Source: Pelagophyceae sp. CCMP2097
Taxonomy: Eukaryota > Sar > Pelagophyceae
Direction: 5' to 3'
Length of the DNA stretch: 19,613 bases
NCBI GenBank assembly: GCA_026770575.1
Contig: MU657170.1
Span: 503,378-522,990 of the forward strand
Part shown: in pieces, positions 1,967-16,790 of the stretch
Layout: the number at the start of each line of letters is the position of its first letter
How positions within the stretch are numbered: position 1 is the first letter of the stretch
Position numbers and translations under genes: made by a program
Notes under the pieces: generated by a model
Database searches by the model: none
The model's input: the letters and a program-made list of their open reading frames with translations, nothing else
What the model was told of the DNA's origin: nothing

Positions 1967-2951
1967 CCGGACCAAGGCCCGGTGCATTATCGTATTTTGC
2001 CTTTCTCCACGCTAAACCTCCCGTTCCTACGGTATGCGTGTGGGGGAGCGTTGCGGTATATATACCGGGCCGCACAATCACCTCCAAGGATAATGATCCG
2101 ATGAATCCCCTTTTGCCCCCAGCGGGTCATCACGGGAGGAGCCGGCCATCGTCGAGGACATCTTTTTGGCGGACGGTTCCAAGGCGGCGGCGCTTATATC
2201 GGTTACTCCGACGGAGAAGACGGATGCCACCGCGCCGAGCGACGACGCGCCGGACTGGCGTGGCACGTGCGCCATCTGCCTGGACCTGCTTCCAGTCGAG
2301 CGTGGCCGGCAAACCTTTTACAATTGCTGCTGCAAGCGGATCTGCCTGGAATGCTCCGACAAGTACAAGTACGACACGCGCTGCCCGCTCTGCCGCATGC
2401 ACAAGTGCGAGTCGGCTGCCGAGTCGCTCCGCCTGCTGCAGAAGAATTCGGACAAGGGCAACGCAGAGGCGCAGGCTCAGCTCGCGCACTTGTACCAGAA
2501 TGGCACCATGGGCCTCAAACAGAATTTTAAGCGCGCGGTCCAGCTTTACAAGCTCGCGGCGGCGCAAAGCCACGCACCAGCTTTGTATTCATTGGGACAT
2601 TGCCATGTCGTTGGCGTCGGCGTCGAGATAAACCTCAAGGCCGCCCTGCTCTGGTTTCGACGCGCAGCAGAGCAATGACTTCCGAACGCGCAGTTCATCA
2701 TCGGCTCTGCGTTTTACAGAGGCAGGGGCGTGCCGCAGTCGTACGACGAAGCCGTAGCGTGGTATTGCCTCGCCGCGGCGCAGGGCCAGCCGGCGGCGCT
2801 CTTCTACCTCGGCGTCTGTCACGCAAACGGCCACGGCGCCGAGCGGGGCGACCAACAGGCGCTGCGCCTCTTCAAGCGCGCCGCGGCCAAGGGGGCCGCC
2901 GGCGCCACGGCGGCGGTCGACTTCTTCGAGACGGTCGATGCGACCCATACA

Positions 2952-3027
2952 CCGAGTCGGAAGAAGGTTGTTAATCGGGTGACACCGATCGAGTCGGGCC
3001 GGACTCGGAAGAAGGTTGTTAATCGAG
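2952..3027 (+). repeat. Direct repeat at the tail of the Sel1 pseudogene
   Basis: The 19-mer GGAAGAAGGTTGTTAATCG occurs at 2959-2977 and again at 3007-3025, 48 bp apart, just after the last Sel1-like helix. It adds a repeated RKKVVNRV segment to the reading frame. It probably lies past the original end of the coding region. Confidence 0.6.
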
Positions 3028-3072
3028 TTTTAATCCCTCGAGCCGGCAACGGGCCCCGCAGGCTGGGCGCAT

Positions 3073-3109
3073 GCGGGGACCGCCACGATGCGCTGCGAGG
3101 GGGTCTGTT
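3073..3109 (+). repeat. Dispersed 37-38-bp motif, copy 1
   Basis: GCGGGGACCGCCACGATGCG and the following GAGG...GTCTGTT recur at 4847-4884 with only a few differences, in the same orientation. This copy lies just past the Sel1 pseudogene and is followed by an A-rich stretch, as is copy 2. Confidence 0.6.
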
Positions 3110-3122
3110 TGAACTGCGTTAA

Positions 3123-4920: not shown

Positions 4921-6109
4921 TCAAAAAAGCCCGCCCGCCTCGCCGGCGTCACCCAGCGGCGCCAGTGTCCTGGCCACGACGAGGGGCGAGAGCGTCTTGG
5001 GATCGGGGCATTCGCTCCAGAGCTGGCGGTCGAGCGAGGGTTGCGAAGTCGGCGATCGGGGTGACGGGGCAGTCGTCGATCGGGGTGACAGGGCAGTCGT
5101 CGAGCGAGGTGACGACAGTGACGCGGGCTGCGACCGCGGCGTGTCCGCCGGCGGCCGCGGCGGCGGCGAGCGCGGTGGCGAACGGTTCGCAGGCGGCGAG
5201 CGGTCCACCGACGGGGCGCGGTCCGGCGACGGCCGCGGCGCATTTGCCAAAGGGGCCAAAGGGGAGACGTCTCTCGGTCGTTGGTGCCTTGGAGGCGGCC
5301 GCCGAGGCGGCGGCGAGAACGCTCTTTGCGGCGGTGAGGCGCGCCACCAAACCGTCGACCGCGGTGTTGGCGGCTCGCTGATCCGCCGCGGCAGGAGCAC
5401 GGGGACGCCAATCGCTAAAGGGCCGGCGTAGAGCGGTCTGTCGTGGCCTTGGTCTGCGACGACGTCGTACGTGCCCGCATCTGCGACCGCATCTGCGACC
5501 GCATCTGCGACGACGTCGTACGTCCCGGACCGTTTCCGCAAAGCGAGGCCGCCGACGAGGGAAGGGCCGTCCACTTCCACTTCCGTGTCCGTGTCCGCCG
5601 CCGCCGCGGCATCCAAAGGCGCCGCGACACGAATGCCGTGGACGCTCGCGTCCAGAGCGGCGTCGAGCGCTTGCATTGCCAAGGAAAAGCCATTCAAACT
5701 CGCGTCCAGCAGACCCGACGCCGTCTGCGCCGCCCGGCTCGTCCGCGGCCGCGGCATGGTTTCGACGCCGCACTCGGCGAGGAACCAGAGCAGGTCCTCC
5801 CTGCGGTGTGTGGAGCCTTCTCCAAGCTCCTCTTTTGACAAAACCTTGACAAAAGTGGGCCGGTCGCCTCGAACGAGGCACCTGCCCGTCTGCGAATCAA
5901 CTCGGGCGACGTCGTGCGGGTCCACAAACGCAAAGTATGGCGACTTTGACGCCAGGAAGACGGCGGACTTCGTCGCCAAAAAGACGCCGGCATTCAAAGT
6001 CGTCGTCGAGGCGTCGTCCGCCGCCTCGGCCACGTCCGCCGAGGCCGCCTCGGCCACGCCCGCCTCTGCCGCGACGTCCGCCCCCGCTCCCTGCTCGACT
6101 AAGCTGACG
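4921..6109 (-). CDS. Exon 15 (rest): variable Ala-rich segment and disordered Pro/Ser/Arg tail of the CHAT protein
   Basis: The same frame continues unbroken to TGA at 4921-4923. First comes an Ala/Val/Asp-rich part, then a possibly folded stretch (SKSPYFAFVDPHDVARVDS; REDLLWFLAECGVETM), then a short internal duplication (TYDVVAD twice, around an ADAVADA array at 5449-5530). A long Pro/Ser/Arg tail with repeated SPRSTT(A) follows. No catalytic family is recognised. The tail is probably disordered and could carry docking or phosphorylation sites. More introns in this exon cannot be excluded. Past the stop the strand reads CTTTTTTGACTTTTTTG, a T-rich 3' end. Confidence 0.55.
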
Positions 6110-9100
6110 CCCTCTGCGACCGGAGCTAAAAGGGTCTGCATGGCCTCGTGAAACGCGACGTCGACGCTCGACCCCTTTGCCATGGCCCTGTACACCGCAG
6201 CAGAGAAGGCTGCGGCCCCCGCATCAACGCACGCCGTCCGCCACCCGACGGCACAGACGTCGGCGTCGCCTCTTTGCGCGGCGAGAGCTAAAGCGAGAGA
6301 GTCGCACGAGTTGGCGAAGAAGAGCTCTGGTCGGGCTTCGGCGACCAGCGACTCGAAGTTCAGCAGAGGTTGGGCCTAGGTCACATGGTGCCGACGTTTC
6401 GGGGAGCATCCACGAATCCTGCACACCCCTCGCAGCACTGGCGCCCCCGCCGCTTCAAGACGCACCACGATGCGCACGCGCATCTGGTCTTTCGCTTCTT
6501 CCGGCGTCGTTTGCATAGGCTCGCTCCGCGCGTGCAACGGCTCTTCATAAAGAGCGTGCTCCGCGAACCCGTGCCCCGCCGTGTGCAGCCAGAGTCTGGG
6601 CGTCTCGCGCATCGTCTTCATTTGGCGGAAGAGATTGCGGCCGTTTCGCCTCGAATTGAACGACCCAAAGTGCGCGCAACTTCGCAAAGTCGCGCCGACT
6701 GTGTCTATCGAGCATTCCACGACGTTCACTTTCACGGCGCGGTCCGGGCCGGCGACGGCGCGCCGGATGGCCGCGACTTCGAAGTCCCACCGGCGGGCGT
6801 CGTCCGACGTCTGAACCGACTTTGAAGTCCCGCGGACCTATCCGGTTTCCACGTTTTTCCGCGAGAATTACGTCTCTTCCAAACCCGGTCCGCGCAGAGG
6901 CGGCCCCGAAAAGAGTACGAGACGGCCGCAGGAGATGGGCCGGGAGACGGGCCGGGAGACGGCCCCTTTCGAGGCATTCGGATGTCCCAGAGGCGGCCCC
7001 TTTCGACGCATTCGGATGTCCCTTTGGACAAAGGTCCGGGATTGCAACGGGAGAGAACCACCAGGGCGCCGGTCCTCACAAAGACCAGCGTCGCGGCCGT
7101 CTCGCTTCGCTTCGTCTGGATGCTCCTTAAAGCACCGCGGCCCCACCAGGGCTCTTTCGGCCTCTGGGGTGCGGCACAGGGGAAGAGTCGGCTTCGGCTT
7201 TTCTCGCCCTCTGCCACCCAGGCCTCTCGCCTCATCTGCCATTGAGCCAACCGCAACACCCCGTACACCGCCAAGCCGGTGAAGACGGCCGCCGCGCCGA
7301 GGACTGCATAAGTGGGGCCGTCCTCGTCGTCGTTTTCTTTTTTACCATCGGAACGAAAACGATCCACGTATTCCGTCGCCCAATCTGCGAGGCCTAGATA
7401 GGGCGGTGATGCCGAGTTTGGACGGGAGCGGGGTTTCATTGGGTCAGGGGGCCCTGCGACAAGGTCCGGGAGACACCTTTCACGCAACGAGGTCCCTGTG
7501 AAAAAGTCCCGTGGCGTGGTCGCTCTGACCAAGTCGCCGCGACACGGTCCCGTGGCAAGCTTCCCGCGGCAGACGTCCCGTCAAGATCCTTGCGACGAGG
7601 TCCCTGTGACACGGTTGCATCGAAAAGGGCCCCGTAACGACGTTCCTTGGACGAGGTCCCGCAAAGGTCCCTGCGACAAGGTCCGTGCGACAGGAAACGT
7701 GTCTCCCTCAAAGGTCCCCGTGGGAAGGTCCCCGTGGCGAGTTTCCCTCAAACGGATTCCGTGGAACGAAAAGGACCTCTCTCGGACAGTCCCCTGCGAT
7801 GAGGTCCCTTTGACAAGGAAAGGTCCCTACGTCAAGGTCCCCAGGGCTGTGTCACAGGGCCCCCGCGAGCAAGGTGCCCGGTGGCAGGTTTCCTCCGACA
7901 AGGACCCGCGACGCTGCGACAGGGTCCCTCTGACAAGGGCCCTCTGAGAAGAGCCCGTTCAGGTCCCTCTGAGAAGAGCCACTCTGACAAGATGCCAGTG
8001 TCCCATTGGCAAGAGCCGTACAGCCGACGGCAGCGCCCGGTCGTCCATCCCTCGAGGCCCGCCGCTCCCGGCGCGGCCTTGATCGGAAACGGGTCGGCCG
8101 AAGTACAATCCAACTTGGAAACAACTTTTTCGAGTCTTTCGTGGTCCCATTTTCGAGATCCCCGAGGCACCTTGCCCGCAACGAAATCCCCGTCACCCTG
8201 TGATGAGGTCCCTGCGAAAGGGATCCCGCGGCAAGGTCGCTGGGATGAGGTTGCTGCGACAAGGAACACGGTCCCGCGACAAGTTTCCCGTGGCAGAGGT
8301 CCCGTCAACCCTGGGACGAGGTTGTTACGAAAAGGGCCCTGATGCAAGGTCCCCGTGACGAGGTTCCTTTGACGAGGTCCCCATGACAATGTCCCTGTGA
8401 CAAGGTCCGTGCGACAGGGTCCGTGCGACAAGTTTAACAACGTGCGGAGAAAGACCTCCCTCCGGTCCTCAAGACGGTCTCCTGTGACGAGGACCCCGTG
8501 GCAAGGTCCCCGTGGCAAGGTCCCGATGCCAAGAACCCAGTGACGAGGTCCCCGTGACAAGTGGTCTTACGACGTGCCGACAAAGGACCCTTTTTCGGAA
8601 ACCCTGCGACAAGGTCCCTTTTTCGGAAACGGGACCGACGACTGAAAAGATGAAGAAACCATCGAAACGCCCAGCGTGGCGATGGAAGCACGCATTCAAG
8701 AGACACAGGGACGTACCGTCGCATTGGACGGCGTAGTCTTCAGCCGACCCGTTCGCGCTCTGGATATTCACACCGTCTAAATGCGGGCAGAGGATGGTGC
8801 GGGCGACCAAATCATCTTTCGAGAAGATGAGCTCGAAACCCGCCTTTTGGGCTGCGGCGCGGCCTCGGTCCGTGAGAAGGCCGAAGGCCACCAAGGGAGC
8901 CAAAGTCGGCCACACCGCCTCGTCGTCTCGGGAACTGATGTACAAAACGCGCCGGAGAGCGTAGTCCCTGTCTGCATAATCCCTCGCGGTGGACTGCAAT
9001 TCCATAGTGTCGTTCGACCTGCCGACTTTATCAGGGGCGATGCGTATGGCCACCACCCGGTCGTCTAAAAACGAAGCGGCCGCAAAGGCGATCGCGTCGT

Positions 9101-12100
9101 CGTGTTGAGAAACTTCGTCGACCATTTCCGACGGGAAATCGCTCGCCACGAAAACGTTGCCACTGGAAAAGTTTAGAGTCTGGTGCAGCGCGTCGTGGAA
9201 GGCGTCTTCCCGTTGCTTCTCGCTGGAAGAAGAGTTCGATGTGTGCCCGTGGCTGTAGTTGCCGTGGTCGTGAGTTGCGTCGAGGACCGCGGCCTCGCTC
9301 AAGCCGCGGAAGGTTTCGGCGCCTCTGGCGAATTGTTTCGCGTCAAAAAGGCGACTGCCGAAAAAGTCAAACGTCCCGTGGCCGGGGGCCGCGCCGGCCT
9401 AAAGGGCGAGCGTGACGGTGCTGGCGCGCCCTGCAACCCTCTGGCGAGACCCCAGTCTCCCGAAAGGACAAAGTCCCATCTGATGGCCCTGTCATCGGGT
9501 ACCGTCGTCCCCGTGGCGTGGTCCCTGACAAGTGACCCGTGGCAAGGTCCCTGCCAGAAACCTGTACCAAGAGGTATTTATGGAAAGGTCCCCGTGACGA
9601 GGCCCCCGTGACGAGGCCCCGCCCCGTGGCAAAGGCCCGTGACGACAACCCCGTGACACGAGGCCCGTATCTCCCTTTGGACCCCGCAACGCGGAATACA
9701 AAAAGCTCCCTGGCGCTGGTGCGAAAACGGACCCTGCCCCTCGAAGGCCGCGTTTGCCCTTTTCCAGCGCCGAATTTGGCGATCAAAATCGTCGACTGCG
9801 CGCAGCGCTCATCAAAGTCGCTCCATTCCCGAACACCGTCCCGGTCGTCAAACGGCGCCACCTCGCGCAGCACGACGCCCTAAAGAGCGGATGAGGCCTC
9901 GATGGCAGTCGGACGAGGGACCCCGCCACCCCAAATGCACCTGCGCTGCAAGCTCGGCATCGGAGAGCGAGCTGAACACCCATCGCAGCTGGGCCAGCGT
10001 CAGCACGCCGCCGAGGTGGTCGAAGATGCAGTCGTGGGCCGGGCCCTTTTTGGCGACGAAGACGGCAACTCCGTCGTACGAAATGGGCCAAGAATAAACA
10101 CGAGCCGCGGCCACTTCGTGCGAGCCCTTCTGCAGCGTGTCGAGCTGCGCCAAGTCGTCGGCGGTAAAGGCCTGGCGCCACTCGTCTTCGGCGACGTTGC
10201 AGCGGCCGTTGATGCACAGGGCCTACGGGTTTCCCGCTTCAGGGGTTCCCTCTCGGCGCTCCTTGGAAAAGGCCCCGCGAGGAGAAACCAAGTCCCCTCA
10301 ACGTCCCCGCGAAAAGGTATGATGAGAACCTTCTTGACAACTTGCCCGTGGCAACTTTCCAGAGGTCCCATTCGCCCCTCGAAAGGGCCTCTCCGGTCCC
10401 TCAACGGCAACCCCGGACAACGTTTCGATGCAAAGGTCCCTATGACAAGATTTCAAAGGGTTGTATGCCAGAAACTTGTGGCAGAGATGTTTGTGACCCG
10501 GTCCCAGTAACGGCAACCCCGTGACAAAGTTCCCATCAAGGTCCCTATGACAAGAACCCCGTGACAGGATCACCGCAAAGACGCCCCTGTGGTGACCACA
10601 TCACAATTACAAGTGGTGACGCCGTGACACGGTTCCCGTGATGACGTCAAGGGGTCCCTGGTCCCAATGAAAACGTCCTGCGACAAGTTTTCCGTGGCGA
10701 GGTCCCGCGACAAGTTCCCCGTGACACAATCCTGTGGCAAGGTCCATGAGACAATGTCCCCTTGACAAGATTACCGTGACGCGGTTCCCGTGACACTAAG
10801 ACGAGGTTCCCGGAACCCGTGACAAAGGTGAAGGTGGCTGTGACAAAGTCCCTGTGGCAAGGTCGTTGTGACGCTGTGACAAGGTCCCGGTGACAAGGTC
10901 GTTGCGACATGGTCGTTGTGACAAAGTCCCTGTGGCAAGGTCTCTGCGACGAGGTCCCGTGGCAAGGTCGCTGCGACGAGGTCTCTTTGACAACATCCTC
11001 GTGACAGGGTCGCCATAGCGAGGTCCTTGGGACAAGGTCCGTGTGACAAGGTCTCTTTAACAAGGTCCTCGCGAAAGGGTCGCTGTGATAAGGCCTGTGA
11101 CGAGGTCTCTTTGACAACGTCCCGTGGCAAGGCCCCTGCGACGAGGTCCTTAAGCCAAGGTCCCTCTGACTCGGTCCCTCTGGCAAAAGGTCCCTGTGAC
11201 AACGTCGCCTTGACAGGGACGTTCAGACAGGTCCCAGTCAAGTCCCGTTGGCACGAGTTCCAGAGCCGCGACGAGGGCCGCTGCGGGATCCCGGGGTCCC
11301 TCTGACAAGGGCCCGCGAAAGTGACTGGGTCCCTCTGACAGGGTACCGTAAAAGTCGATCGGCCCTCAGAGGAAAGTTCCCGTAAAAAGTGACTGGGGCC
11401 CTCTGAAAAGATGCCAGTGTGGGCCCGTGACAGAGGTCCCCGTGGCAGAGGTCACCAGGTGCCAGAGTCGCCGTGACAAGGACCCTCTGGTAAGGTCCCC
11501 GAGACGGTGCCCCGTGGCAGGGTCCCTTTGGGCACCTTTCCCGAATAGAGGGCCCCGTCATCCCGTCACTTCGACGAGGTCCCGTCGGACCGGGGAGGGG
11601 TGCAACGGTCCGACGGGGAGGCCCTTTTGGCGAGGCCCCTCTCAGGCGAGGTCCCTCTGACGAGGTTCCTTTGGCAAGAGATCGAGAGTCACAAGGGGTT
11701 GCCGTGCCGTCGGGCCCGCCACACAGTCCCTGTGGCAAAGGTCCCTGTGACAAAGTCGACGCGACAAGGTCCCCTATGCCGAGGCCCCTCTGTCGAGATT
11801 TTCGTGACGAGGCTCCTTTCCCAAAACGACTTCTCCGTCACCCTGTGCTCACTCTGCAGCCATGCCGGCAGTCGACAAGCGTCCGGGCAGGGCCCCTTTG
11901 CACGAGAAGGTCCAAAATCAAGTTGCCGACGGTGCGGAATGTCCCACGATGGACACCGCATCAAACGGCAGCAACGTTGGGCGAGAGCCTTTCCGCCCTC
12001 GTCTTCAGCTTTGCGCAGTCGCGCACCGTCTCAGAGTCGCGGAAGCGGCGCGGCTGCACGGAGACCTTGGCCTCGGAGGGGTCCCACTCGCCTGGCAACG

Positions 12101-15100
12101 GTGGGCAATATGAGAGGGATCCTCCTCTGGCATCCTCGATGAACAACTTCGGTCCATCCCGCTTTGACTCACGGCTGAGCATGCCCGCGGTCGCTTCAAA
12201 GCGGCACAGCGCGTGGACGGCGGCGGAAGTGCCGCCGCCGTGGACGGTCGAAGAGAAGAATTCGTCGAGGGGAGCGTAAGTAGTCGACCAAGCAGCCAGA
12301 AGGGCATACACCGTCGTCGACCTGATTCGCGTTTCCGAGAACCACGTACGACGCCCTCGAAAAGGCCGAAACGGAAAGCCTCTTCTATTCGAGCCTCTGC
12401 GACGACGTCTGCCTCTGCCAAGACTTCCGCCTCTTCTATTCGAGCCCCTGGAGCCCAGACACGCCTCCCAGGCGTTGAAACGCTTCCCGGCGGACGCTGC
12501 ATCTGGCCCGAGGACGACGAGGGGCCTGCGGGTGGTCCACATTGATTTATCTGCATCCCAATTTTCGAACAACCGCCCCGCCCCCGCCTCTTGCTTTTCT
12601 GCCGCCGAGACCAGGGCCGCGGCCGCGCCGTCCGTCATCAACGGGCCCGGGTCGTTGGCGTGCCTAAAGCGAGACACGTCCGCCTTGGCGCACGACTCCG
12701 CTCAAAACTCGCCCCGCGGTCGAAGGCCCCCGCTCATCACAAACTCGCCTATCCGCTTCTCCTTGCACAAGCTTTTGCAGCGCGTCCGCGACGGCCGCCC
12801 TGGAAGATGCGCATTCCGTCGGAGATAGCGCTTCTAATCCGGCATGCACTGCGGCTTGCTGTCCAACGTCCGATAACGCCACATCTATAAACCGCAAAGC
12901 CTCCACCGCCTCCGCGGCGTCGGCGCACGAAGCGACGGCGTCGAAGCGGAGTGCTAAAGATAATGTTCGGCCGAAGAGTGTTGCGTCTGTCACAATTTCC
13001 GCGCAAGTGTCCTGATAAACATTCCCCGTCGGTCTACGCAGAGCCGCCGAAGACATGAAGCCCATCGTCGAACCCGCCGGCTCCGCCAGCAAAACCTAAC
13101 GGAAGCGTACGGCGACGCAATCTTCAGATGCACGCACGGCCTCGGCGATGTCGAGATTGTACTCGCTCACGGAACGCGCCGCCCACCGCGCGTCCACCTG
13201 CAAAGGGGCGTTTCAGACGCGCCGCCCTCTGGGATCGGCCGCAGAGCGCATCGAATGGTCTCCTCCTTTCGATGGCCTCACGACGGTCCTCGAGACGGGC
13301 TTTTGATGGGCTCTTGATGGCCGTCTTGAGGACCGTTTTGAGAACCGTTTTGAGCACCTTCTTGAGGCTGTCTCAAGGCCATCTTTCGAGGGCCGTCTCG
13401 AGGGCCTTGTCAGAGGGACCGTCGAGAGGCCGTCTCGAAGACCGCCCCGTGGCCGTCTCCGGGACCGTCTCAAGGGCGGCTTGGGGCTGTCTTGAGGACC
13501 TTTGGGCCGTCTCGAGGCCTTGGAGAGGACCATCCCGCGGCCGCCTCGAGGGCCGTCTTAACGACCGTTCCGAGCCGTCTTGGGTCCGTCTCGAGGATTA
13601 TGGATTATCGAGGACCATCTCCGGAAGACCATTTCCGGAAGACCGCCTCGAGGCCGACACGGACCGTCTCGAGGCGGCCTTGGGACCGTCTCGAGGCCGC
13701 CTCGGAGAACGTTTCGAGGGCCGTCGTGAGGACCGTTTTGAGGACAGAGGTCGTCTCGAGGCCATCTCAAGGACCGTTTCGACTACCTTGGGACCGCCGC
13801 GAGGCCGTCTCGAGGACCGCATTCCGTCTCGAGGACCGTATTCCGTCTCGAGGCTCTCTCGAGAACCGTCCTCAGGGCCGTCTCGAGGGCCGTCTCAAAG
13901 GCCCGTCAAGACGTCCTCGAGGATCACCTCTTCGGACCATCTTCAGGCCCGTCTCGAGGCCGTCTCGAAGCCGCCTCGGCCCAGTCTCGAAGACCGTCTC
14001 GAGGCCGTCTGAGGTTCGAGCAAGTCTGCATCCCTGAGGCGACTCTCGGCGACGCGCCCCCCGGGTTCCGAGGGTGGCGAGGCGACCCTCCCTTCGGCGA
14101 CGCGCTCCTCGGCTTCCCTCGGCAACTCGTCTCTCGGGCGGCCACTCTCGGCAACTTGCCCCTTGCATTTCAATGAGAAAACAACGCACGTCTTCCACGT
14201 CGTCACTGAGCGCGCATCCTAAAGCTTGCCCGACCGCCGTCCGGACGGCGGACGGGTGCCACGCCCCCGCCCTCGTCAGCGTGTTGTTCAGCTGCGCGGC
14301 GCAGTCGCGGCCCGCGTCGGCGAAGAGTGCGCAGTCGCCGTCGACGCTTTGGCAGAATTCTTCCTCCGAGTCAGCTTCTTGCACCGCCACCGCGCGCACC
14401 GGCTCGACGACGTCCTTCCACTTCGCTTCGCCCCTCGGGGAAGCGCACAGAGCTCGCTTCAAGGCCGCTTTCGTGGCCCCGCAACACGCGCACCGAGCAG
14501 CCTTCTTCGGTACGACAAGAGCTATCGTGTCATGTGCAACTGGTATCGTGAGAAGCGTCGGCGCTTTAAACGGACCGCATCGGCCGCCCTGGCAGGCCAG
14601 GCTCCAATCAGACACGTGGAGCGGGCCTAAGAAACAACTTTCACAGAAGGCTTCTTGCAAAGGCCCCTCGTGGGGGCCCATCTGTCGCTTCGGCCTCTCG
14701 TGCAGGCCGATCTGTATCTTCGGCCCCTCTTCGGCCCCTCTGTTGAGAGGGAGGCGCCTCGTCGACTCACGTTGGCCGGCGTCCAGCCCCAACTCGCGGC
14801 CCCCGCACTTCCGCGCCGCCGTGGCCGAACCGCGCGGCGACGCCGTCGCCGTGAGCAGCGCCAGGCCGAGGCAGACGTGGTCGTCGTCGCCGTCGTGCAC
14901 CTTTGATGCGTCTCGGGACGACAGAAGCGGAGGGTCGACGGCCGCGGAAAGGACAACAGCCGCAGAAGGCCAAAGGGACAAAGGCCAGGTAGGAATGCAA
15001 AGCCCCCCCTCGGGCTCCGTTCGCGCACCGCGACGGCGACCGTCGGCGGCGAGTTCCGCGAGACCTACCACGCCCGGTCGATGAGCCGCTCATGGCCCAG

Positions 15101-15256
15101 GGAGGCATCCATCTGCGCGAGGGCCGGTGGAAAACTCACGTCTCTTGACCAAAGAGCGAAGGGGTTCAGCAGTTCTTCAGTCGTCTGCACCAGCACGCCA
15201 CCGGCGCCACTTAGGCAGAACACCAAGAGGCACAGCGCGGAAGCGCATTGCCGCAT
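4921..15256 (-). CDS. Predicted receptor-protease: signal peptide, two PstS-like domains, TM helix, CHAT caspase-like domain
   Basis: This is a hand-built spliced gene on the minus strand. Favoured exons are 15256-15140, 14900-14771, 14626-14190, 13197-13171, 13095 to about 12700, 12663 to about 12440, about 12356-12173, 12091-12027, 10222-9941, 9879 to about 9733, 9398-8717, 7393-7080, 6810-6665, 6595 to about 6466 and 6375-4921. Where I could fix both ends, the sites are GT/AG and the phases agree, e.g. GACG/gtacgt with ctatctag/GC (phase 1) joining the second binding domain to the TM exon. The product would lie in the surface or an internal membrane, sensing a small anion or ligand outside and acting as a protease inside. 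Exons 5-7 and the end of exon 10 are unresolved. It could be two adjacent genes, but the phase-matched 8717/7393 junction argues against that. Confidence 0.6.
5044..5120 (-). repeat. Tandem repeat in the C-terminal tail coding the SPRSTTA motif
   Basis: GATCGGGGTGACGGGGCAGTC-type units of about 21-24 bp are repeated and translate on the minus strand to SPRSTTALSPRSTTAPSPR. The array stays in frame with the coding sequence, so copy number can vary without breaking the protein. Confidence 0.6.
5449..5530 (-). repeat. In-frame 12-bp array flanked by a duplicated 17-mer
   Basis: GCATCTGCGACC units lie between two copies of GCGACGACGTCGTACGT. On the minus strand they encode TYDVVAD, a VADA array, then TYDVVAD again. 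This is slippage within the coding region that keeps the frame. Confidence 0.7.
6110..6810 (-). CDS. Exons 13-15 (part): CHAT-type caspase-like protease domain
   Basis: The fold elements run ATLVFTSDD (strand), RRWDFEVAAIRRAVAG (helix), VNVVECSIDTVGATL, LWLHTAGHGF (His motif), LVAEARPELFFANSCDS (Cys motif), CAVGWRTACVDAGAAAF and YRAMAKGSSVDVAF. The presumed catalytic His is at 6573-6571 (second His of HTAGHG) and the Cys at 6306-6304 (NSCDS), the clan CD dyad. Two small introns, 6664-6596 (69 bp) and 6465- or 6426-6376 (90 or 51 bp), are multiples of three. The second must be removed because it holds an in-frame TAG. CHAT proteases cleave specific protein partners in bacterial defence and death pathways; here the domain would face the cytoplasm. 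The substrate is unknown. Confidence 0.78.
6811..7079 (-). other. Intron 12 with a GGGCCGGGAGAC repeat
   Basis: It is bounded by gtgagg (7079-7074) and ggttcag (6817-6811). The middle (6935-7020) holds repeated GGGCCGGGAGAC and a duplicated CCCCTTTCGA-GCATTCGGATGTCC block. Open frames across it are low-complexity read-through. Confidence 0.55.
7080..7393 (-). CDS. Exon 12: juxtamembrane and single transmembrane helix
   Basis: After the ctatctag acceptor the exon reads LADWATEYVDRFRSDGKK, an acidic stretch, then a hydrophobic helix (YAVLGAAAVFTGLAVYGVL, about 7275-7219), then a basic inner flank (QMRREAW). The charge change fits an outside-in orientation. It joins upstream in phase 1 to the PstS-like exon and downstream in phase 0 (TTT/gtgagg at 7080, ggttcag/ACG at 6810). 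The downstream junction completes the strand ATLVFTSDDARRWDFE that opens the CHAT domain. An alternative is an independent start at the ATG at 7439, giving a shorter membrane-anchored CHAT protein. Confidence 0.65.
7394..8716 (-). repeat. 1.3-kb intron packed with family-1 minisatellite
   Basis: This is the intron between the second PstS-like domain and the TM exon (gtacgt ... ctatctag). Two blocks, 7440-7980 and 8170-8640, consist of degenerate 14-15-bp units around ACAAGGTCCC(t/c)GTG. Between them, 8000-8165 is non-repetitive and one minus-strand frame has coding character (KVVSKLDCTSADPFP). It might be an optional exon, but I found no phase-compatible acceptor for it. Confidence 0.6.
8717..12356 (-). 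CDS. Exons 7-11: second PstS-like phosphate-binding domain
   Basis: Family landmarks appear in the right order. These are STTVYALLAAWSTTY, HGGGTSAAVHALC and AGMLSREWDPSE (12356-12027, across an 81-bp intron 12172-12092); YSWPISYDGVAVFVAKK and LTLAQLRWVFSSLSDAEL (10222-9941); REWSDFDERC (9879 on); APGHGTFDFF, the equivalent of the ligand loop SGTFDFF (9398 on); then DDAIAFAAASF, ALRRVLYIS and LLTDRGRAAAQKAGFEL. The exon ends GACG/gtacgt at 8717. PstS-like domains bind phosphate or similar anions between two lobes; here the domain would be extracytoplasmic. The true ligand is unknown, since the loops differ from PstS. The donor near 9733 (GTCCGT) is weak. Confidence 0.75.
9399..9732 (-). repeat. 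Intron with family-1 minisatellite, short block
   Basis: The same ACAAGGTCCC/GACGAGGCCCC units occupy about 9440-9670, between the exon carrying REWSDFDERC and the one carrying APGHGTFDFF. The acceptor ctcgcccttTAG at 9399 is good; the donor near 9732 is weak. Confidence 0.5.
10223..12026 (-). repeat. 1.8-kb intron packed with family-1 minisatellite
   Basis: It is bounded by ACG/gtgcgc (12026) and acccgtag/GCC (10223), both phase 0. About 10260-11850 is a nearly continuous array of degenerate GTGACAAGGTCCC units, with variants GTGGCAAGGTC, GCGACGAGGTC and GTCCCTCTGACAAG. Long open frames inside on both strands are by-products of the periodic composition. A non-repetitive patch at 11840-12000 could hide a small exon (segment GPCPDACRLPAWLQ, then a gtgagc donor). 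Confidence 0.6.
12440..13197 (-). CDS. Exons 4-6: first PstS-like domain, C-terminal part, and linker
   Basis: A 27-nt exon (13197-13171) and an exon from 13095 carry AGSTMGFMSSAAL, matching the family's AIGF..YA strand. Then RTLSLALRF and ALSDVGQQAAVHAGLEAL match the closing PLSRPLYIYV and LS.EGQ..V...G elements. Between the pieces, 13170-13096 reads as a 75-bp intron (gtgagc...cgttag). Without splicing the frame contains one TAG at 13098-13096, after SEDCVAVRFR, which itself resembles the family's SEDDN segment, so that stop could instead be a mutation. A further block, 12663 to about 12440 (LMTDGAAAALVSAAEKQ and RPLVVLGPDAAS), lies between the two domains; its splice ends are unresolved and part could be intronic. 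Confidence 0.5.
13260..14010 (-). repeat. Family-2 minisatellite: CTCGAGGACCGT 12-bp units in intron 3
   Basis: Degenerate 12-bp units (CTCGAGGACCGT, CTCGAGGCCGTC, GGGCCGTCTCGA) fill about 750 bp of the candidate intron 14189-13198. The unit is unrelated to family 1. It contains many CTCGAG palindromes, so each strand can form small hairpins. Confidence 0.75.
14020..14160. repeat. Family-3 repeat: TCGGCGACGCG / CTCGGCAACT units
   Basis: About 140 bp of irregular units built on (C)TCGGCGACGCGC and TCGGCAACTYG abut the family-2 array, inside the same candidate intron and close to the exon 3 donor. Confidence 0.45.
14190..15256 (-). CDS. Exons 1-3: signal peptide and first PstS-like domain, N-terminal part
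   Basis: ATG at 15256 starts a 39-codon exon. It has a hydrophobic signal peptide (ALCLLVFCLSGAGG) and then TTEELLNPFALW, which aligns with the first helix of PstS-type domains. The exon ends GAC/gtgagt at 15140. Exon 2 (candidate start 14900) carries GSATAARKCGGRELGLDAG, where such domains have the ligand-loop GGGSSAG region. It ends C/gtgagt at 14771, and exon 3 begins after tttcttag at 14626, restoring an Arg codon. Exon 3 holds TIPVAHDTIALVVPKK, the hinge strand written PVAYDGLAVVV in the family, and many cysteines (secreted character). The candidate end of exon 3 is GAC/gtgcgt at 14190. The domain is strongly diverged. Confidence 0.55.
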
Positions 15257-16013: not shown

Positions 16014-16180
16014 TCTGCAGTGGGATACTCCATCGGCCGAGCACTCCGTCGGACGATCGAACGCGCCCTAGAAGAACCCCGAGCCTCGAGGGCCAGAGGC
16101 CGGCTGCCACCCGAAGCCCCGCGCCGTCCGGGTCGCGCGGAGTATAGCGTCAGTTTCCCGGGCGTTGGTCTCAGCGCGCG

Positions 16181-16790
16181 CGACGGCGCCTGCTGCGCGG
16201 CTGCGGCGGCGGCGCGAGCCGTCGCCTCGCGGTTATGAAGCGTCGACAGCTGACCTCGACGGTGGCCTCGCCGAGTCCAGCGACAGCCGCGCGGGCGACG
16301 GTCAATGCACGGCAACGTCGCGCGCTCGTGCGACGATTTCCAACGCGCGGGCGACGGCGCTCGGTGCGCGGCGGAGGCTGCGGCGCGGGCCGGCGTTTCG
16401 CGGTCCCGGGGCGCCAACAGCGGTTAGCGGGTTGGCTGCGGCGAGTAAAGCTACAGCCGCGCGTGCGACGGCCGCCGCACGAACGACGGCGCGCGCGAGG
16501 GCGACGTTGCCCGGCGCGCGGGCGACGGCGCTCGCTGCGCGGCTGCGGCGTAGGCGCGGGCCGGCATCTCTCGGTTCCGAAGCGACGACAGCGGCCAGCG
16601 TGCTGGCTGCGGCGAGTAAAGTGACAGCCGCGCAAGCGATAGCCTCACGGGCGACGGCGCGCGCGCGATCGACGCCCCTCGGCGCGCCGGCGACGGCGCA
16701 CGCTGCGCCGTTGCGTCGACGGCGCGAGCCAACGTTTCGCGGTCCTGAGGCGCCGACGACGAGCGCCGCGCCGCGCGCAAGCGGCCGAGG
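16181..16790. repeat. Tandem repeat of 171, 171 and 168 bp (57-, 57- and 56-codon period)
   Basis: Units begin at the CGACGGCGC(n) anchor at 16181, 16352, 16523 and 16691, and share GCTGCGGCG, CGCGGT(t/c)CC(c/t)G and GGCTGCGGCGAGTAAAG. All spacings are multiples of three, as in a coding repeat. The plus strand is open in one frame throughout. The minus strand would give REMPARA..AAAQRAPSPARR units in one frame, broken by a single TAG near 16453. I cannot tell which strand, if either, is translated. Confidence 0.65.

Follow-up and report, generated by a model that had tools for sequence, protein, structure and literature searches.

Does a single gene of Pelagophyceae sp. CCMP2097, a single-celled Arctic pelagophyte, encode a receptor with a caspase-like protease built in? 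The question is raised by a 19,613-nucleotide stretch of this genome (the window), for which an earlier note had proposed a single-pass receptor with two PstS-like ectodomains and a cytoplasmic CHAT protease. Animal caspases are switched on through adaptors, and to our knowledge no direct receptor-protease of such a kind has previously been described in a eukaryote. The gene opens to direct test one route by which phytoplankton might sense nutrients, neighbours or attackers and commit themselves to death, a process that is still poorly understood.

The gene model (Table 1) requires 12 introns, nine junctions of which were inferred in addition to the three listed earlier. Those three (8717/7393, 7080/6810 and 14771/14626) have GT-AG borders and matching phase, just as had been claimed. 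The spliced translation is open throughout, with one terminal stop only, and runs from a signal peptide through two ectodomains (D1 and D2) and one transmembrane (TM) helix to a CHAT-like protease and a Pro/Ala/Arg/Ser-rich tail. When codon usage was scored with stops left out, the model frame ranked top of six in 12 of the 13 exons and top of three in all 13. The junction between exons 1 and 2 (15139/14900) is uncertain; read-through past 15140 (VSFPPALAQ...) is also coding-like. Pfam searches of nine unspliced open reading frames returned three weak, unrelated matches only (E 0.046-0.25). We regard the coding exons as shown or well supported, and the gene looks real, nearly as it was first drawn.

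Table 1 Features of the receptor-protease gene model, in positions of the window
Feature	Position	Strand	Basis or detail
Whole gene model	4921..15256	minus	13 exons, 1,624 aa + stop
Signal peptide MRQCASALCLLVFCLSGAGGVLV	15188..15256	minus	end point set by eye
Exon 1	15140..15256	minus	donor GTGAGT at 15139
D1, probable degenerate PstS-like domain	12745..14900	minus	weak profile score
D1 exons	14900-14771, 14626-14190, 13197-13138, 13095-12745	minus	gene model
Linker + D2, PstS/SphX-like (PBP_like_2) domain	8717..12683	minus	PstS profile, hhalign, Pfam
Linker + D2 exons	12683-12463, 12321-12027, 10222-9941, 9879-9733, 9398-8717	minus	gene model
Repeat-rich intron between PBP part and TM part, 1,323 nt	7394..8716	minus	GTACGT...CTAG
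Exon 11: ectodomain end, acidic outer flank, TM, basic juxtamembrane segment	7080..7393	minus	spliced model, hydropathy, charge count
Single TM helix YAVLGAAAVFTGLAVYGVLRL	7248..7310	minus	mean hydropathy 1.87
CHAT-like protease domain (predicted)	6082..7106	minus	exon 11 end, 6810-6427, 6375 onwards
Introns in protease part	7079-6811 and 6426-6376	minus	gene model
Predicted catalytic His, H1092, HTAGHG	6571..6573	minus	column His in 44/46 distinct bacterial CHATs
Predicted catalytic Cys, C1164, NSCDS	6304..6306	minus	column Cys in 44/46 distinct bacterial CHATs
C-terminal tail	4924..6081	minus	composition

We searched for a protein or transcript covering the model in a protein database that does contain CCMP2097 proteins and MMETSP transcripts. 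None turned up, either with candidates limited to 783-2,492 aa (the 7,992 best-sharing, E<=0.01) or with candidates limited to 284-905 aa (the 7,997 best-sharing, E<=0.1), and no paralogue of the gene was found in the genome. The lack of an annotated model or transcript in these searches, the lack of a paralogue and the degenerate state of D1 would suit a decaying or unexpressed gene, that is, a former receptor-protease that is now a pseudogene or silent copy. We consider this unlikely: there are no in-frame stops over 13 exons and 1,624 codons, coding-frame codon bias is retained in 12 of the 13 exons, the catalytic pair and the splice sites are intact, and the repeat introns may have defeated the gene finder.

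The absence of a joining transcript from both searches would also be expected if the locus held two neighbouring genes, one for a double-PBP protein that is secreted or stays in the ER (15256 to ~8469) and one for a membrane-anchored CHAT protease starting from the ATG at 7439, in which case there would be no ligand gating in cis. This ATG is in frame and upstream of the TM exon, and a repeat-rich gap of 1.3 kb separates the PBP part from the TM part. However, the codon score drops at the 8717 donor from +0.36 to -0.42, the 82 codons of read-through being negative on average, and climbs at 7393 from -0.26 to +0.08, the open stretch of 62 codons before it (including the codons from 7439) being negative on average as well. 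In addition, the record of a glutaminase-type gene shows removal of an intron of 2,935 nt, and a TM helix after a PBP domain fits the layout of seven glutaminase receptors described below. We therefore judge a pair of separate genes to be improbable, and return to the single gene in what follows.

Hydropathy and charge counts agree with the signal peptide and the one-pass hydrophobic helix, acidic on its outer and basic on its inner flank, that had been proposed. The signal peptide, with a mean of 2.21 for the 19-mer at residue 5, contains the most hydrophobic stretch of that length. The TM helix, which comes second to it in hydropathy, is the sole other strong hydrophobic segment, with seven acidic and four basic residues in the outer 20 aa and three acidic and five basic residues in the inner 20 aa, and can be taken as shown or well supported. 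The ectodomain carries six N-glycosylation sequons, the cytoplasmic part none; this, together with the parallel layout of the seven glutaminase genes, upholds both the proposed domain order and the cytoplasmic position of the caspase-like protease. Signal peptide, Venus-flytrap (VFT) ectodomain, single TM helix and cytoplasmic enzyme are found in order in one open predicted spliced chain, for which the two database searches found no joining RNA.

To characterise the ectodomain, we used a PstS-like profile built from bacterial domains (29 rows, 27 distinct). D2 matched this profile at 38.0 bits in three colinear stretches, the best of 5,000 shuffles reaching 6.5, and hhalign gave a probability of 95.4% over 243 columns. 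PBP_like_2 (PF12849) was the sole Pfam match listed for D2 at E<=10 among 24,736 models, its E of 0.012 falling short of the cut-off. Unlike the 29-row profiles, a four-sequence SphX profile did not place D2 above shuffles (9 of 5,000 as good), and searches of PDB sequences with D2 and the CHAT-like domain yielded nothing useful (one chance match, E 0.72). D2 has the profile match and landmarks in common with PstS/SphX phosphate-binding proteins, but is part of a receptor and lacks one glycine of the GSGAG loop as well as the SGT serine; this position, Ser in all 24 distinct aligned PstS-like domains, is His (HGT) in D2. By its sequence, D2 is clearly predicted to be a solute-binding domain with the PstS/SphX fold, its anion pocket being altered. 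A phosphate sensor was rejected as a firm claim because the SGT serine is missing from D2, and D1 has no SGT at all. D1 scored 3.5 bits against the PstS-like profile (10 of 5,000 shuffles as good or better) and 22.0 by hhalign (probability 1.8%; 1 of 200 shuffles better), had no Pfam match at E<=10 among the 24,736 models, and is probably a degenerate PstS-like domain. Of the two PstS-like ectodomains originally proposed, D2 is thus borne out, whereas D1 is weak.

The cytoplasmic region carries the CHAT signature, a His in an HxxGHG-like motif and a later Cys in a CxS motif, in order; the His and Cys columns are each conserved in 47 of 49 sequences when duplicates and the C19 CHAT are counted. 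With our own CHAT profiles, either none or one of 5,000 shuffles matched or exceeded the domain (15.3 bits against a best shuffle of 11.7; with profile c1, 1 of 5,000 was at least as high), and BLASTP aligned it with the C19 CHAT at E 0.001. The sole Pfam match listed for it at E<=10 among 24,736 models was CHAT (PF12770), at 13.0 bits against a cut-off of 24 (E 0.072). An AlphaFold model of the protease (pLDDT 40.4, pTM 0.39) was too poor to judge the fold, and structure matches were uninformative. The CHAT protease with HTAGHG and NSCDS that the earlier note had read here is therefore upheld in its His/Cys pair, which lies on conserved columns, but not by its Pfam score. We regard the pair, as aligned, as shown or well supported, and the domain as a predicted, divergent CHAT-like cysteine protease. 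A real fusion whose caspase-like domain lacks catalytic activity or is no protease, and which acts as a scaffold signalling by binding, like the pseudo-caspase CHAT1 of Csx29, would be in keeping with the divergent sequence, the score under the Pfam cut-off and an N-terminal half that is barely recognisable by profile; we give this a low probability, with both catalytic positions kept along with neighbouring conserved Gly, Ser, Asp and Tyr positions. The last 294 aa, in the tail, consist of 16% P, 14% A, 11% R and 10% S. A search of viral contigs for relatives of CHAT and of the glutaminase receptors yielded nothing useful, and a profile search of bacterial CHAT ORFs found none with a PstS domain at E<=0.01 (50 loci, L035-L056 and L093-L120, plus L028; mostly short flanks).

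Seven further genes in the genome (C6, C17, C23, C32, C39, C74 and C536) encode two PBP regions, one TM helix and a cytoplasmic glutaminase. Three of them are matched by intron-free, transcript-like records (P0001, P0003 and P0004), with a glutaminase domain in P0001 at a Pfam E of 2.7e-92, and the introns inferred from these records are of a similar GT(G/A)..AG style, mostly TAG, and up to 2,935 nt long. The double-PBP-TM-glutaminase proteins (P0001-P0005) resemble the CHAT receptor in their two PBP regions, single TM, cytoplasmic enzyme and similar introns, but have a glutaminase in place of the CHAT domain and PBP domains that differ by profile: profiles of their PBP1 and PBP2 scored D1 and D2 no better than shuffles. 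Descent of the CHAT receptor from the glutaminase receptors is therefore not supported, and we treat it as a parallel rather than a proven relative. Given these seven genes, three with transcript-like records, the pairing of two external PBP domains with an internal enzyme seems to be a modular receptor type in this alga. The like layout of the seven genes points to a broader receptor style, on which our literature search found no paper.

Taken together, we lean, with slightly better than even confidence, towards a single-copy gene for a type I plasma-membrane, ligand-gated receptor, with two flytrap (solute-binding-protein) domains outside, D1 degenerate and D2 of PstS/SphX fold, one helix, and a CHAT-like cysteine protease in the cytoplasm. 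An extracellular solute or protein partner would bind, and D2 would close or the ectodomain dimerise, as in Venus kinase receptors (VKR) or natriuretic-peptide receptors. This may bring two CHAT domains together or shift the position of the catalytic loop, in the way described for Csx29, and the activated protease could then cleave either its own tail or some target in the cytoplasm. The receptor would likely be used in stress, nutrient or cell-death signalling. If true, a receptor with its own caspase-like protease would link an outside signal to proteolysis, and perhaps to death, through one protein in a marine alga. More tentatively, and at somewhat less than even chance, this eukaryote may possess one-pass receptors of a modular class that wires bacterial-type flytraps directly to cytoplasmic enzymes (a glutaminase in seven cases, a caspase-family protease in one), the protease form coupling an extracellular solute to intracellular proteolysis without adaptors.

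The earlier note knew of no described receptor with this order, and our literature search likewise found no paper describing a PBP-TM-CHAT receptor; the layout of sensor plus caspase-family protease, however, has a cyanobacterial precedent (PMC3501461). In that paper, single proteins pair a metacaspase with CHASE2 (Trichodesmium erythraeum IMS101) or with ANF_receptor (Cyanothece sp. PCC 7424), each pairing being represented by a single sequence, and its authors inferred a cytoplasmic protease for the CHASE2 form. Like the algal model, these join an extracellular sensor and a caspase-family protease in one protein, but they are bacterial, with a metacaspase rather than CHAT, another sensor fold and, around CHASE2, four TMs. 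VKR, for which ligand-induced activation and dimers have been shown (PMC2680970), share the VFT ectodomain, single TM and intracellular enzyme, but are animal proteins with one VFT and a tyrosine kinase instead of a protease. Finally, the TPR-CHAT protein Csx29 of Craspase has a CHAT protease with a His/Cys pair, which its sensor part activates by allostery (PMC10028731), as might hold for the algal protein, although Csx29 is soluble, RNA-guided and TPR-linked, with two CHAT subdomains.

The window comes from Pelagophyceae sp. CCMP2097, an Arctic stramenopile alga whose genome is described in PMC9756366; it is eukaryotic, and its genes are intron-bearing. Our genome searches covered an assembly of 66.2 Mb in 638 contigs, which is smaller than the 85.8 Mbp tabulated in PMC9756366. 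By strand reading and phase testing, the gene for a predicted CHAT receptor (signal peptide, two ectodomains D1 and D2, a transmembrane segment, a CHAT-like protease and a tail) was modelled as 13 minus-strand exons, which join to encode 1,624 amino acids in a frame that stays open until a single stop. All 12 introns are GT-AG, with lengths from 42 to 1,804 nt. The three junctions named in an earlier, sequence-only note are all present among them, and the other nine were set by eye with domain landmarks and phase as guides; the boundary between exons 1 and 2 is the least certain. The long introns are packed with degenerate minisatellites, with a unit of about 14 nt (AAGGTCCCTGTGAC) in several introns and of about 11-12 nt (CCGTCTCGAGG) in another, as would be expected if related repeats had spread among introns.

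Positions of the CHAT receptor exons and of other features (window coordinates, except for the glutaminase receptors)
Feature	Position	Strand	Basis or content
Exons 1-5	15256-15140, 14900-14771, 14626-14190, 13197-13138, 13095-12745	minus	phase testing
Exons 6-10	12683-12463, 12321-12027, 10222-9941, 9879-9733, 9398-8717	minus	phase testing
Exons 11-13	7393-7080, 6810-6427, 6375-4921	minus	phase testing
Intron minisatellites	7582-8561, 9586-9620, 10831-11755, 13312-14014		degenerate repeats
Sel1-repeat gene	2097-3119	plus	Pfam E 1.3e-16 and 1.2e-15 (two ORFs)
Tandem repeat	16174-16765		171 bp, 2.5-2.7 copies
Glutaminase receptors (L021-L027)	contigs C17, C23, C536, C74, C39, C32, C6		two PBP_like_2-type regions, one TM, cytoplasmic glutaminase

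The model was then scored with a codon table trained on the exons of the glutaminase receptors, seven genes of the same genome, together with the CHAT-hit ORFs of contigs C19 and C131. When stop codons were ignored, the model frame was the best of the three same-strand frames in 13/13 exons and the best of all six in 12, the single exception being the 60-nt exon. Within the eight introns longer than 100 nt, with stops counted, no coding frame was found apart from an opposite-strand frame of a 141-nt intron (+0.18). A reading as two separate genes would divide the model between 8717 and 7393. There, the score falls from +0.36 over the last 60 codons before the donor at 8717 to -0.42 beyond it, and rises from -0.26 before the acceptor at 7393 to +0.08 within the transmembrane exon. 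This speaks against two separate genes, though it does not replace RNA.

Two segments of the predicted product are strongly hydrophobic, namely the signal peptide and residues 936-956, and its charges are consistent with a C-terminus inside, in agreement with the single-pass layout and cytoplasmic C-terminus proposed previously. Shuffling predicts 2.1 N-glycosylation sequons for the ectodomain, which carries six, a number that 1.6% of shuffles attain, and 1.1 for the 668 residues past the membrane segment, which carry none.

Against 24,736 Pfam models, D2 matched PBP_like_2 (E 0.012) and the protease matched CHAT (E 0.072), each as its sole match at E<=10 and each under the curated cut-off; D1 had no match at E<=10. 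Since both families had been named beforehand in the earlier note, these weak matches count for more than their E-values suggest. A PstS profile of 29 rows (27 distinct), drawn from Chloroflexota genomes, gave D2 38.0 bits over three stretches in colinear order, with none of 5,000 shuffles above 6.5, and hhalign gave 95.4% over 243 columns with a score of 64 (200 shuffles reach at most 27). For D1, the same profile gave 3.5 bits (10/5,000 shuffles equal or better), or 4.4 bits with D2 included (6/5,000 as good), two earlier profiles were equalled or bettered by 17/5,000 and 98/5,000 shuffles, and hhalign gave 1.8% with a score of 22.0 (1/200 shuffles better). These scores are weak, but the best D1 alignment is colinear and plausible, and D1 is therefore probably PstS-like; of the two PstS-like ectodomains originally claimed, D2 is thus upheld and D1 remains a probable case. 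Counted over 24 distinct relatives, D2 retains the S, T and V of the N-terminal loop (present in 22, 19 and 15) and the G and T of SGT (24 each), and has His for the SGT Ser and Ala for the invariant Gly of the GSGAG loop (both 24/24 in relatives). As judged from these residues, D2 retains the family landmarks without the full phosphate pocket. Tandem PstS-like domains were observed in Herpetosiphon aurantiacus (genome G001), where a 706-aa ORF (L057) holds two that are very similar, and paired matches lie within one long frame in several other genomes of its phylum.

The protease was compared with profiles of bacterial CHAT sequences, built with or without the CHAT of C19. It exceeded the best of 5,000 shuffles on three (15.3 bits against 11.7, 12.7 against 11.5 and 11.8 against 10.6), and on a fourth (10.6 bits) 1/5,000 shuffles was as good or better. 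BLASTP against the C19 CHAT gave E 0.001. The predicted catalytic His and Cys, which lie in the HTAGHG and NSCDS motifs of the earlier note, fall on columns that are each conserved in 44 of 46 distinct bacterial CHATs, and with the C19 CHAT included, conserved Asp (35/47), Tyr (36/47) and Gly (31/47) positions are also retained. The AlphaFold model of the protease was too poor in quality for use.

A search of the 66.2 Mb assembly for further copies of the CHAT receptor gave none, and no relative emerged among the best 7,992 (783-2,492 aa, E<=0.01) and 7,997 (284-905 aa, E<=0.1) database protein candidates. The genome has two other CHAT matches, on C19 and C131. The 1,900-aa C19 ORF (L028) matches LRR weakly and has, besides its CHAT match, a NACHT/nSTAND-type ATPase, an NLR-like layout in an alga. 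Searching the genome for the CHAT family scored this ORF at 28 bits, tblastn matched it to a bacterial CHAT at E 9e-36, and over part of its CHAT it shares 44% identity with a CHAT of an Anaerolineae bacterium (L035); a Pfam scan of the whole ORF found no CHAT at E<=0.01. No PBP domain was seen at C131 (L029). The CHAT-hit ORF there adjoins others that by eye resemble the Sel1-repeat gene of the window, in which RING-like cysteines, again by eye, precede the repeats. The window also holds a tandem repeat, which lies inside long open frames that overlap across the two strands.

PF12849 was found at 12 places in seven loci of the genome (two in five loci, one each in C6 and C32). ORF reading and alignment of P0001 identified two PBP regions, a transmembrane segment and a glutaminase in 7/7, and these loci account for every one of the 14 listed glutaminase matches of the genome. 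Signal peptides, checked in part of the set, were seen in P0001, P0003 and C6. Five database proteins (P0001-P0005) match this genome or bear the CCMP2097 name; P0002 and P0005 are named 'beta-lactamase/transpeptidase-like protein' in nr. P0001 (1,225 aa, from a record of 3,933 bases) and the MMETSP transcripts P0003 and P0004 each match a glutaminase-receptor gene and lack its introns, so the layout seems to be expressed as a single chain, although these records in part resemble chimeras of paralogues. Setting the three against the genome yielded eight introns flanked by no more than two mismatches each (donors GTGCGT, GTGCGC, GTGAGC, GTACGA and GTATGA; seven TAG acceptors and one CAG; 61 to 2,935 nt); two further P0004 gaps, of 49 nt (25 mismatches) and 54 nt (3 mismatches), were excluded, and the gene models of P0002 and P0005 contribute four more introns of 47-153 nt. 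Profile comparison detected no relationship of D1 or D2 to these PBP domains, and the parallel therefore establishes that such a layout exists in the alga, not shared descent.

Flytrap domains shut on their ligand and act as dimers, which in VKR drives an intracellular kinase (PMC2680970), and the CHAT protease Csx29 is inactive with misplaced catalytic Cys and His until distant binding realigns both (PMC10028731). By analogy, we propose a similar coupling across the single membrane helix of the CHAT receptor: the binding of a ligand or partner to D2 (or D1) would rearrange a receptor dimer, the CHAT domains would become active, and their target would be either a protein of the cytoplasm or the tail of the receptor itself. 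We infer each of these elements: the ligand, the dimerisation, the activity and the substrate.

The flytrap-membrane-enzyme layout predicted for the CHAT receptor is that of VKR and natriuretic-peptide receptors (PMC2680970), and single cyanobacterial proteins fuse a metacaspase to CHASE2 or ANF_receptor (PMC3501461). CHAT itself has been described in conflict systems of bacteria (PMC10907252) and in Craspase. The earlier note knew of no receptor with this domain order, and the open-licence papers that we searched likewise held none, nor any eukaryotic combination of PstS-type and CHAT domains. Receptor-metacaspase fusions and flytrap-membrane-enzyme receptors are known already; what would be new is the combination of PstS-type and CHAT domains in a eukaryote.
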